Below are positions 41,537 to 48,931 of a stretch of DNA of 64,000 nucleotides, piece by piece. The stretch lies in contig BPHV01000004.1 of assembly GCA_026003755.1 (NCBI GenBank), positions 1-64,000 of the forward strand. The letters are read 5' to 3'. The notes beneath the pieces are model-generated. The model saw nothing but the letters and a program-made list of their open reading frames with translations, searched no databases and was not told the origin of the DNA. The position numbers and the translations under genes are program-made. The DNA is from Candidatus Roseilinea sp. (GTDB lineage: Bacteria; Chloroflexota; Anaerolineae; J036; Brachytrichaceae). Positions within the stretch are counted from its first letter, which is position 1, and each line of letters starts with the position of its first letter.

Positions 41537-41782
41537 TCAAGCCTTCTCCGGCTCGTAGAGCATGCCTTCCAACAAACGCTCCACGGCCATCGTATGGCTG
41601 TCTACGCCGTGGTTCTTGAAGTACTCGGAGTTGCAATGCCACTGTCCATGATCGTAGGTGACGAGGTACTCTCCGTTATCCCCGCGCACCATCACCTGGA
41701 AGGTCAAGAATTGAAATCGGTCGCGTTCCTGAGCGTAGCGATGCGCTTTTTCGACCTTACCGATCAAGCTTGAATCCATCAT
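41537..41782 (-). CDS. small degenerate SWIM zinc-finger-like protein
   Basis: 81 residues. Near the centre it reads YDHGQWHCNSEYFKNHG and VDSHTMAVERLL. The spacing fits a SWIM finger (CxC...CxH), but the second and third cysteines appear as Ser and Asp, leaving one Cys and the final His, so zinc binding is doubtful. A strong GGAGGG ribosome site lies seven bases before the ATGATG. It has its own promoter and a structured leader with an intrinsic terminator. I do not recognise a defined family; function unknown. Confidence 0.75.
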   Translation of the reverse strand: MMDSSLIGKVEKAHRYAQERDRFQFLTFQVMVRGDNGEYLVTYDHGQWHCNSEYFKNHGVDSHTMAVERLLEGMLYEPEKA

Positions 41783-41811
41783 GTGCTTTCCCTCCTAAGA
41801 TTGAAGACAAA

Positions 41812-41845
41812 CAAAAAGGCACGCGCTGTAGTCGTATGCGTGCCC
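41812..41845 (-). terminator. intrinsic terminator in the leader of the SWIM-like gene
   Basis: On the minus strand GGCACGC (41838-41844) pairs with GCGTGCC (41818-41824), and TTTTTGTTTG follows directly. It lies between the promoter and the ribosome site of the 81-residue gene, the layout of an attenuator, or of the end of an independent small RNA. Confidence 0.8.
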
Positions 41846-41868
41846 TCTTCTCGTTATTGGACTTACCA

Positions 41869-41917
41869 GTGACGACAGCGAAGGCGCTTCCCTGGCCACT
41901 TTCGCTTCCATTGTCAC
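41869..41917 (-). ncRNA. candidate structured leader RNA (riboswitch-like) or small RNA
   Basis: On the minus strand an outer stem GTGAC/GTCAC (41913-41917 with 41869-41873) encloses an inner stem AGCGAA/TTCGCT (41901-41906 with 41877-41882) and a short GGC/GCC stem around a purine-rich loop. It begins just after a strong promoter and is followed by a terminator hairpin at 41812-41845. No known riboswitch consensus was recognised. Either it controls the downstream gene or it is a roughly 105-base free RNA. Confidence 0.5.
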
Positions 41918-41919
41918 GG

Positions 41920-41947
41920 ATTTTATTAAAACGCCGAGCGATGTCAA
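41920..41947 (-). promoter_or_regulatory. strong sigma-70-type promoter on the minus strand
   Basis: TTGACA (41942-41947) and TAAAAT (41920-41925) with a 16-base spacer, next to an AT-rich TTTAATAAAAT run. It is the best promoter match in this part of the window and drives the leader RNA and SWIM-like gene. Confidence 0.7.
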
Positions 41948-44585: not shown

Positions 44586-46168
44586 GGGTGCATTTCAGTT
44601 TTGGGGCAGGAGCGCACTCAAAAAGCGCGCAGATTGACCTCGCCCGCGTGAACATCCGAAGATCACGGACGTCGTCGTGGATTGACAGACCGGCATCTCA
44701 GCGAGGGACGACAAGCCGCAGGCCGCTGCGGGCATAATGCGAGGACAGTTATATCCGGGAGGTGTGCCATGAAAGAGACCAGGGCGACGACACAGCGCAA
44801 GTCAGCGTCTTCGCCACGGCGAGGCGAGATGAAAGCGGTGCTGATGCGAGAAGCGGAGGCCGTGATCGATGAATTGCTGGACTGGAATGAACAGGCCGGC
44901 CAGCCGACACTGACGCAGATCGAGGAGGTGATCCTGAAGCTGCGCAAGCGGATGAGCGAGGCGATGGCGGTCACCGTGATCGAGGCGCAAGAGGCGAGCC
45001 GCCCGGTGCCGGGGCCGGTCTGTCCGCAGTGCGGGCGGGAGATGCACTCCAAAGGCCGCAAGCGGAACACGGTCGAGAGCCGCGTGGGCAGCCTGTCCGT
45101 GCAGCGAGGATACTACTACTGTGAAGCCTGCCGCGTCGGGCTTTTCCCCCCTCGATCGGCAGCTGGCGGTGTGGGACAAGCACTGGAGCGAACAGGTGGC
45201 CAAGCAGGCGGTGTGGCTGAGCGGGCTGGTGACGTTTGAGGAAGCGGAGCGCATCCTGGGACAGGTGGGCGGGCTGGTCATGTCCGACAGCAGTGTGTGG
45301 CGGCGGGTGGCGGTATGGGGAGAGCGCTTTCGGGGGGTAGAAGCCACACAACGCGCCCTGGCGGACGGCGGCGGGCGCACCGCCGAGGCGGCGACCGTGC
45401 CGGGCAAGATGGGTGTCGCCCTGGACGGAGCAACGGTTCATGTGCGTGGCGAAGGCTGGAAGGAACTCAAGGTGGGGTGCGTGTTCGATGTCGTGCTACA
45501 GCCGACTTGGGATCGCCAGAGCGAGGAGTGGGTTGACACGGCCCACGCCGTCCGCGCCAGCTACGTCGCCCATCTGGGCGGGCCGGAACGGTTCGGCCAG
45601 GTGTTGTGGACGGCCGCCCAACGTCGCGGCTGGACGCAGGCACGTGACACCATCGCCTTGGGCGATGGCGCCGCGTGGATTTGGAATCTGGTCAGCGAGC
45701 ACTTCTACGACAGCCGACAAGCCGTGGACTGGTATCACGCCAGCCAGCATCTGTGGCAGGTTGCTCACGGCCTGCACGCAGCAGGCAGCCCGGCGGCCCA
45801 GGCTTGGTATCGTGCCCACGAAACCCTCTTGTTCCAGGGCCATGCCGACCGGATTGCGGCTCGACTCCGTCAGGCCGCCCATACCCATCCCCAGCACGCC
45901 GAGATGCTACGGCGTGAAGCGGGCTACTTCGGGGACAACCGGCGACGCATGCAATACCAGAGCCTGCGCGAAGATGGCTGGCCGATCGGCAGCGGCGTGG
46001 TCGAGAGCGCCTGCAAGCAATTCCGTCATCGCTTCGCCGGTAGCGGGATGCGCTGGAGCCGTCCCGGCATCGAGCGTCTGCTCCCGATTCGGGCGGCCGT
46101 CATGGGTCACGCCTTTGACGCGATGTGGTCTGCTGCCTATTCTTCGCCCCCAAACTGAAATAGACCCC
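44586..46168 (+). mobile_element. complete ISKra4-type insertion sequence (1,583 bp)
   Basis: Imperfect 22-bp terminal inverted repeats at 44586-44607 and 46147-46168, both containing ATTTCAGTTT and starting GGGT, with about four mismatches. Identical 9-bp duplications lie outside both ends, so this copy moved in recently relative to sequence decay. The inside carries one transposase gene on the plus strand. It sits between the PH-like gene's upstream side and the end of leuS. Confidence 0.88.
44769..46158 (+). pseudogene. ISKra4-type transposase, single frameshift at a C6 run
   Basis: From the ATG at 44769 (GGAGGT ribosome site at 44759) the first part carries CPQCGREM and YYYCEACRVGLFP, the zinc-binding N-terminus of this family. 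At the TTTTCCCCCC run near 45140-45150 the frame must move by +1 (or two bases are missing) to continue as LDRQLAVWDKHWSEQ through KMGVALDGATVHVRG, ALGDGAAWIWNLVSEHFYD, DWYHASQHLW and GSGVVESACKQFRHRFAGSGM to the stop. All later motifs are intact. It may be programmed slippage, a dead copy, or a homopolymer sequencing error. Confidence 0.8.
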
Positions 46169-46207: not shown

Positions 46208-48931
46208 TCAAACGACGATGTTGACCAGTCGCCCTTTCACGTAATGCACCTGTCTGGGCGGCGCGCCGTTGATGAAGCGCCGCGCGCCTTCGCTGGCCAG
46301 CGCCGCCTGGGTGATCGCCTCCTCGCTGGCGTCCGCCGGCACCACAATTCGGTCTCGCACTTTGCCGTTGACCTGGACGACGATGGTGATTTCTTCCGCG
46401 CGCGCTGCGGCCTCGTCAACGACGGGGAAGGGCTGGCGATGGATGCTGTAAGGGCGGCCCAGCCTGTGCCACAGCTCCTCGGCCATATGCGGCGCGATCG
46501 GCGCCAGCAGCCGCAACAGGATATCCACCGCCTCGTGCCATTCTGGCGTGCCGGCCAGCCCGGCGTCGCGCGCCCGATACAGCGCGTTGGTGAATTCCAT
46601 CATCGCCGCGACGACCGTGTTGAAGCTGAACGCCTTCAGATCACGCTCATAGCGCTGGATGGTCTGATGCGCGACGCGGCGCAGTTCACGCGCGCTCATC
46701 TGAATGGGCGCGCCCTTGTCCTCCTCCGGCGCCAGCACGATGCGCCACACGCGATCCAGCCAGCGCCGCACGCCGGGCACACCCTGCGTGCTCCATGGCA
46801 CGGTCTGCTCGAAGTCGCTGATGAACATCTCGTAGCCTCGCAGGGCATCTGCGCCGTGCTCGGCGATGACCTCGTCGGGCGTGATCACGTTGCCCTTCGA
46901 TTTGCTCATCTTCTCGTAGTACTCGCGCCCCTTCTCGTCCACGCGCTTCTGCGGCGAGAGGATCAACCCCTGATTGCGCAAGGCGCTGAACGGCTCTTTG
47001 AATTTCACCACGCCCAGGTCGTACAGCACCTTCGTCCACATGCGCGAATACAGCAGGTGGAGCACCGCATGCTCGGCGCCGCCGACGTACATATCCACCG
47101 GCAGCCAGTAGTCAATCTCCTTCGGGTCGCCGATGGCCTTGTCGTTGTGTGGGTCGGCGAAGCGGATGTAATACCAAGACGAGCACGCCCAGGTGGCCAT
47201 CGTGTCGGTCTCGCGCCGTCCGTTCGGTGCGTTGACGAACTCCGGGATGCTCTCCAGCGGTGATTCCCCGTTGGGCCCAGGTTCGTATTCCTTCACCTTG
47301 GGCAACAGCAACGGCAGCTCATCCTCACGCATGGCCACCGGCCCATCCGGCGTATGCACGATGGGGATCGGCGTGCCCCAGTAGCGCTGGCGGCTGATCA
47401 ACCACGGGCGAATCTTGTAATTCACGCGGCGCTTGCCGAAGCCCATGCGCTGGCAATACTCGGTCGCCGCGCGGATGCATGCCTTGCCGTTGTGCATGCC
47501 GGTAATCGGACCGCTGTTCACCATCACGCCGGCTTTATCTTCGTAGGCAGCGGTCATGCGTGACTCATACTCGGCGATCAGAGCAGGATTGATCTGTTGA
47601 TCGTCCTGAATCCCCTGTCGCTTCAGTTCTGCTTCAGGGAAAACCACCACCTTGATCGGCAGGCCGAACTTGCGGGCGAACTCGAAGTCGCGCTGGTCGT
47701 GCGCCGGCACGGCCATGATCGCCCCTGTGCCGTAGCTCATCAGGACGTAGTCGGCAATCCAGATCGGGATGTGCGCGTCGTTCACCGGGTTGATGGCATA
47801 CGCGCCGGTAAATACGCCGGTCTTCTCCTTGTTCTCGGCGGTGCGCTGCTCCTCGGTCTCGCCTTTGGCGAAGGCGATGTAGCGCTCGACGTCGGCGCGC
47901 TGCTCCGGCGTGGTGATTTCGGGCACCAGCGGGTGTTCGGGCGAAAGCACCATGAACGTCGCGCCCCACAGCGTATCCGGCCGCGTGGTGAAGATGGGAA
48001 TGGGGTGACCGCTGTCGGCGACTCGGAAGACGACCTCGGCGCCTTCGCTCTTGCCGATCCAGTTGCGTTGCATCAGCACGATGCGCTCCGGCCAATCCAC
48101 GCTATCCAGATCGTTGATCAGCCGCTCGGCATACGCAGTGATGCGGAAGAACCATTGCTTTAGGGTGCGCTTGATCACCAGCGCGCCGCTGCGCCAGGCG
48201 CGGCCGTTCTCCACCTCCTCGTCGGCGACGACGACTTTGTCCACCGGATCCCAGTTGACCGTGCTCTCGGCCTGAAAGGCGAGGCGGAAGTTGTTCAGGT
48301 AGTCGTTTTGGGCGCGGCGGCTCATGGCGCGCCACCCTTCCGCTGTGATCACCGGCGCGCCTTTGGTGACGACGCCGATGTGTTCTGGATGCGCGTCAAT
48401 GTAGTCGAAGATGGCCTGCGAGCCGCGCTCGGCCAGCTCGGCCTCTAACTCAGCAATCGGGCACGCTTTGTCCTTGCGCGGGTCGTACCACGCATTGAAC
48501 ATCTGGATGAAAATCCATTGCGTCCATCGGTAATAATCGGGATGGGCGCTGTTGATCAGGCGTGACCAGTCATAGCTCAGCCCCATGAGCTTGTACTGGC
48601 GCACGTAGTTGGCGGAGTATTTTTCGTTCAGCTCGTGGGGATCCACCTTGAGTTTGATCGCAGCGTTCTCGGTCGGCAGGCCGAAGGCGTCGAAGCCCAT
48701 CGGATGCAGGACGTTGTAGCCCTTCATGCGGTAGTAGCGGGCGATCACATCTGTGGGCACATAGTTGCGCGCGTGCCCCACCGACATTCCCTCGCCGGAG
48801 GGATACGGGTAAAAGTCCAGCACGTAGTATTTCGGCTTATCGCAGGCCGGCTCGGTCTTATAAAGTTGATCGTGTTCCCAACGGGCTTGCCACTTCGGCT
48901 CGATCTCTTGCGGCTTGTATCTGTCTACCAT
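46208..48931 (-). CDS. leuS: leucyl-tRNA synthetase
   Basis: 907 residues, class I synthetase. The HIGH-type motif is in YPSGEGMSVGHARNYV, the editing domain (CP1) carries TTRPDTLWGATFMVLSPEHPL split around its Thr-rich site, and KMSKSKGN is near residue 673. The C-terminal anticodon and extension domains are complete, ending VKGRLVNIVV. It charges and proofreads tRNA-Leu. A GAGGAG ribosome site precedes the ATG at 48931, and a T-box leader upstream controls it. The new IS copy begins about 40 bases beyond its stop. Confidence 0.97.
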   Translation of the reverse strand: MVDRYKPQEIEPKWQARWEHDQLYKTEPACDKPKYYVLDFYPYPSGEGMSVGHARNYVPTDVIARYYRMKGYNVLHPMGFDAFGLPTENAAIKLKVDPHELNEKYSANYVRQYKLMGLSYDWSRLINSAHPDYYRWTQWIFIQMFNAWYDPRKDKACPIAELEAELAERGSQAIFDYIDAHPEHIGVVTKGAPVITAEGWRAMSRRAQNDYLNNFRLAFQAESTVNWDPVDKVVVADEEVENGRAWRSGALVIKRTLKQWFFRITAYAERLINDLDSVDWPERIVLMQRNWIGKSEGAEVVFRVADSGHPIPIFTTRPDTLWGATFMVLSPEHPLVPEITTPEQRADVERYIAFAKGETEEQRTAENKEKTGVFTGAYAINPVNDAHIPIWIADYVLMSYGTGAIMAVPAHDQRDFEFARKFGLPIKVVVFPEAELKRQGIQDDQQINPALIAEYESRMTAAYEDKAGVMVNSGPITGMHNGKACIRAATEYCQRMGFGKRRVNYKIRPWLISRQRYWGTPIPIVHTPDGPVAMREDELPLLLPKVKEYEPGPNGESPLESIPEFVNAPNGRRETDTMATWACSSWYYIRFADPHNDKAIGDPKEIDYWLPVDMYVGGAEHAVLHLLYSRMWTKVLYDLGVVKFKEPFSALRNQGLILSPQKRVDEKGREYYEKMSKSKGNVITPDEVIAEHGADALRGYEMFISDFEQTVPWSTQGVPGVRRWLDRVWRIVLAPEEDKGAPIQMSARELRRVAHQTIQRYERDLKAFSFNTVVAAMMEFTNALYRARDAGLAGTPEWHEAVDILLRLLAPIAPHMAEELWHRLGRPYSIHRQPFPVVDEAAARAEEITIVVQVNGKVRDRIVVPADASEEAITQAALASEGARRFINGAPPRQVHYVKGRLVNIVV

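Follow-up and report, generated by a model that had tools for sequence, protein, structure and literature searches.

On the minus strand of the window, by which we mean the whole 64,000-nt stretch of Candidatus Roseilinea DNA analysed here, a promoter is followed by a leader of about 60–65 nt, an intrinsic terminator, an AGGAGGG ribosome site and an 81-codon gene starting with ATG at 41782 (table 1). Named close relatives place the genome in the Candidatus Roseilinea group within the Anaerolineae (Chloroflexota). The promoter matches the consensus at 11 of 12 positions and has the top score within 4 kb, while the terminator combines a GGCACGC/GCGTGCC stem with an A-U extension and a subsequent T tract (z = -3.48). 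The near-consensus promoter, the two nested stems within the leader, the intrinsic terminator and the ribosome site reported in the initial annotation of this DNA are thus all present on this strand.

Table 1. Predicted features of the SWIM locus in the window
Feature	Coordinates	Strand	Basis or remark
-35 hexamer TTGACA	41942..41947	-	promoter scan
-10 hexamer TAAAAT	41920..41925	-	16-nt spacer to -35
Predicted transcription start, 6-9 nt past the -10 hexamer	41911..41914	-	deduced from spacing
Leader ORF, 38 codons, predicted leaderless, MEAKVAREAPSLSSLVSPITRRGHAYDYSACLFVCLQS then stop	41795..41911	-	ATG at predicted transcript start
Leader hairpin (the nested stems of the initial annotation)	41868..41900	-	genus-specific, no covariation
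Intrinsic terminator hairpin GGCACGC...GCGTGCC, A-U extension, T tract	41813..41849	-	fold and family covariation
Shine-Dalgarno AGGAGGG of the SWIM gene	41790..41796	-	sequence; SD also in relatives
81-aa SWIM-zinc-finger-like protein, degenerate zinc ligands	41537..41782	-	homology; AlphaFold model

The 81-codon gene, hereafter called the SWIM gene, is present in all 28 genomes of the family, in 247 of the 298 genomes sampled from the class and in 117 of the 151 sampled from the phylum. Its relatives in other families carry CxC...CxH ligands, and 23 of 30 aligned proteins match Pfam SWIM; the window protein is 40–67% identical to members of this alignment, and its predicted product is SWIM-type by homology to these SWIM-containing proteins. 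The window protein itself gave no match to the SWIM zinc finger (PF04434) and lacks its ligands, having CNS...DSH in place of CxC...CxH. Aligned members of the window's family show C(N/D)S...DSH in an otherwise highly conserved protein, a pattern indicating family-wide loss of the metal site. Because the ligands are replaced by CNS...DSH or CDS...DSH, zinc binding is doubtful in this family. The AlphaFold model of the window protein has a pLDDT of 92, and no relatives were found in the PDB by fold or by sequence. Gene neighbourhood offers no functional hint either, since neighbours differ between families. Our literature search found no paper linking the SWIM zinc finger with Chloroflexi, and the element is absent from the main text of a 2024 noncoding-RNA survey that includes Dehalococcoides motifs.

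To compare loci, the upstream regions of orthologues were first inspected by eye and then scored by one fixed procedure requiring, in this order, a high-score promoter, a leader of 20–200 nt and a strong terminator ahead of the gene; the thresholds for promoter, terminator and start site, as well as the terminator finder, were our own. The full layout was found before 124 of 152 SWIM orthologues and before only 1 of 577 neighbouring control genes, and it occurs in many families of the class as well as in other classes of the phylum. These results support the assignment made in the initial annotation, namely that the elements preceding the SWIM gene have the layout of a putative transcription attenuator, which would be class-wide and extend beyond the class. 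Among 137 non-redundant relatives, from which redundancy was removed by leader k-mers only, a near-consensus promoter with a 17-nt spacer predominates (98/137), TTGACA is exact in 92, and a Shine-Dalgarno match of at least 4 precedes the SWIM gene in 136. The gap between hairpin and gene has a median of 46 nt and usually spans 25–100 nt, being mostly below 45 nt in the window's family. Only 2 of the 137 gaps contain a promoter, so the SWIM gene must be reached by readthrough. We found no paralogous leader copies in the window's own genome, where the layout is single copy. Some lineages are without the whole device: in relatives L025 and L026 the SWIM gene starts directly at the promoter. The attenuator is absent from the genus comprising L024, L025 and L026, and in the latter two the -10 box abuts the SWIM start codon, as in a leaderless gene. 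In one family member, L028 (1501–1692), the SWIM gene is truncated or frame-shifted and the leader is disrupted, gene and attenuator having been lost together.

Within the leaders lies a short ORF, mostly 9–25 codons long and either led by a Shine-Dalgarno sequence or leaderless, a feature missing from the initial annotation. By our criteria such an ATG ORF is found in 100 of the 137 leaders and not in the other 37. Its end falls at the hairpin edge in 37 of these 100 leaders, within the hairpin in 26 and beyond it in 26, so that the ORF extends to the hairpin in 89 and ends before it in 11 (off-frames: 69 and 23 ending before it). Counting all ATG ORFs, 40 of the 137 leaders have a stop at most 4 nt from the hairpin edge, compared with 12.9 ± 3.0 (z = 9) in shuffles that held the last 9 nt fixed and preserve dinucleotides, not phylogeny. 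The identical ATGs read in the +1 and +2 frames give 7 and 16 edge stops, and a prior test with 110 leaders had given z = 10.3. Examples of ORFs ending at the edge, with a Shine-Dalgarno sequence or an ATG placed at the start, are MRVVVQYPGLFF, MRVLIFYQIGSLSD and MKTCVTTWLRGV, each followed by its stop codon. Among close relatives, ATG and GTG starts and TGA and TAA stops interchange with their position held in L207 and L215–217, and so do TGA and TAA in L070, L076 and L119; all three types of stop codon are used. The base following the stop is U in 0 of 37 cases, which is only suggestive.

No amino acid constraint was detected on the leader peptides, for which pN/pS is 0.80, equal to that of the off-frames, and their coding status therefore rests on the position of the ORF. 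In the same peptides no regulatory residue stands out, none being enriched more than 1.55-fold, and W, H and C are depleted. In the window the ORF reads through the terminator and its TAG stop lies within the ribosome site of the SWIM gene. Most leader ORFs of the window's genus likewise run through the hairpin, those of L004 and L005 stopping at its edge. The leader ATG lies 6–10 nt past the -10 hexamer in all nine members of the genus that we examined, and translation of these leaders probably starts leaderless; predictions of leaderless genes exist for some Chloroflexi (PMC3160421).

Within the window's genus the terminator is invariant, and in the family it covaries, with 4 of 7 pairs changed on both sides (0 of 500 shuffles). 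In the form RCAC...GTGY (CAC/GTG) the hairpin is found in 90 of 137 SWIM-gene terminators versus 7 of 78 control terminators with GC above 0.5, and the exact GGCACG pattern is nearly confined to the SWIM locus in the genomes of the family. The conservation of RCAC/GTGY exceeds what a terminator needs, and the preference could reflect descent, a preference of polymerase pausing or recognition by a protein. Under an autoregulatory model based on such recognition, binding of SWIM or another protein to the hairpin would determine termination, whether or not the leader ribosome takes part. The enrichment of the motif and its near confinement to the locus favour this possibility, but the similarity of the hairpins may reflect descent, a third of them miss the motif and the register of the leader ORF would be left unexplained, all of which makes autoregulation, taken as the explanation of the locus, highly improbable.

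The strong promoter, together with a leader RNA that would be a defined transcript of ~100 nt, could also belong to an independent tiny gene encoding a small RNA or a small protein, with the SWIM gene expressed through leaky readthrough. However, the layout precedes the SWIM gene with the frequency given above and is single copy in its own genome, the peptide is unconstrained and the RNA structure unconserved, a second promoter is hardly ever present before the SWIM gene, and L025 and L026 have the latter directly behind the promoter, with leader and terminator missing. We consider this alternative very unlikely. The small RNA suggested in the initial annotation survives to the extent that the OFF state should yield a terminated transcript of ~100 nt; there is no sign that it has a separate function.

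The initial annotation had further proposed a new structured cis-regulatory RNA, which as a ligand-binding riboswitch would use its 5' hairpins as an aptamer choosing between terminator and antiterminator. Two observations are in line with this proposal: leader and terminator of the window fold beyond shuffles (-40 kcal/mol, z = -2.66), and the leader stem AGCGAA/UUCGCU is retained in 8 members of the genus. The leader alone, however, reaches a z of only -1.86, and across the class the fold of 123 leaders taken without terminator is close to that of shuffles (mean z -0.49). Pairing between the leader and the terminator's 5' arm is below chance (0.377 vs 0.42 in shuffles), and no antiterminator pairing to this arm was found in the class-wide test of leader pairing. 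Near-chance folding and pairing below chance make a riboswitch with antiterminator unlikely class-wide. Searches with Rfam covariance models, at gathering as well as E-value thresholds, gave no useful match, which agrees with the initial annotation that no known riboswitch class fits and offers no support to a riboswitch. Conservation of the stems, which the annotation had named as a check, holds for the terminator, with its invariance in the genus and covariation in the family, but the leader stems are confined to the genus, where pairing is retained through one-sided changes only, with no covariation, and other genera have different sequence in their place. Because the leaders are folded near chance, free of antiterminators and variable between genera, the structured-RNA reading is unsupported; what is conserved instead is the ORF in register with the terminator. 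A riboswitch thus appears extremely improbable. On the comparative data, the conserved element of the leaders is an ORF whose stop lies at the terminator, inside it or past it, not an RNA fold.

The locus is probably best explained by transcription attenuation through ribosome occlusion, similar to that of pyrBI and pil1 and without regulatory codons. The strong promoter would produce a short leader RNA containing the small ORF. If no ribosome were near the end of this ORF as the polymerase passes, the hairpin would fold and an RNA of ~100 nt would be released. A ribosome following closely, or lingering at the leader stop, would instead cover the 5' arm of the hairpin and block the terminator, so that the polymerase would continue into the SWIM gene, to be translated from its own ribosome site. 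Since neither regulatory codons nor an antiterminator are found, the switch would read translation itself, the signal being initiation on the leader, the coupling of ribosome and polymerase or a slow termination step, not a particular amino acid. We infer from the direct-occlusion geometry of the loci that a ribosome on the leader ORF would shield the terminator; in the window, where the ORF is predicted to be leaderless and spans the hairpin, gating would be exerted by the following ribosome, as in pyrBI. Termination in E. coli fell from ~90% to <10% when a stop codon was placed 5 nt ahead of an intrinsic terminator, an effect that vanished once translation was uncoupled (PMC4824070). In S. 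gallolyticus the pil1 operon is switched on by leader ORFs whose stop lies within the hairpin or downstream of it (PMC3894217). It is from the layout and its conservation, the register of ORF and terminator, the covariation of the latter and the absence of an antiterminator, all evident from sequence comparison, that we infer leader translation, occlusion-caused readthrough and the nature of the signal. Counting against this explanation are the 37 leaders in which no ORF was recognised, the absence of constraint on the peptides and, in the window's genus, the predominance of ORFs that run through the hairpin from starts predicted to be leaderless.

The pyrBI attenuator senses UTP via polymerase pausing and controls pyrimidine genes. 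Its leader ORF in E. coli overlaps the intrinsic terminator, and a close ribosome prevents the hairpin from forming, with no antiterminator involved (summarised in PMC4824070). The window locus most resembles pyrBI, as its ORF runs through the hairpin, whereas in most relatives the stop of the leader ORF falls on the hairpin edge or within the hairpin; SWIM loci also differ in that we identified no U-rich pause and in that the downstream gene encodes an orphan SWIM protein. The likeness to pil1 lies in a leader stop in or beyond the hairpin, which permits transcription in that system, and in the lack of regulatory codons; pil1, however, switches by repeat-length phase variation (PMC3894217), whereas in nearly all species SWIM loci keep the register of ORF and hairpin in the absence of repeats. 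Only the leaders of L020 and L021 were seen to contain repeat-like insertions, ggccagaaggcgttt and ccgagaactcttgg, ahead of the terminator; these recall the repeat-based switch of pil1.

Antibiotic-sensing uORF attenuators (e.g. msrD, yxjB, lmo0919) depend on stalling peptides and alternative hairpins. They resemble the SWIM loci in combining a short uORF with a terminator that senses the state of the ribosome, but SWIM leader peptides are free to vary. Attenuators of the trp, his and ilv type share the order of promoter, leader peptide, intrinsic terminator and gene; an amino acid attenuator of the trp/his type was rejected for the SWIM loci, as they have no run of regulatory or cognate codons (W, H and C being depleted) and no antiterminator, and their leader stop lies at the hairpin, not >20 nt before it. 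The terminators of amino acid attenuators stay >20 bp from the leader stop, thereby avoiding a direct effect of the ribosome (PMC4824070).

Direct ribosome-occlusion attenuation has so far been known from few cases, namely pyrBI and pil1. Here it appears to be conserved over a deep bacterial lineage and on a widespread gene, with a leader that varies while the register with the terminator is kept. The loci amount to well over 100 natural variants in which the effect of the distance from stop codon to terminator on readthrough could be tested, and the putative attenuator gives a way into the function of a neglected small Chloroflexota protein. A wider proposition, which we advance tentatively and regard as rather unlikely, is that a phylum-wide, codon-independent attenuator reports general translation status and drives a SWIM mini-protein acting in translation or transcription stress, possibly looping back through binding of the RCAC/GUGY hairpin.

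Elsewhere in the window, a 345-codon ORF on the plus strand (45121–46158) resembles a transposase and adjoins a leucyl-tRNA synthetase-like gene (46208–48931), both likenesses being based on reading only.
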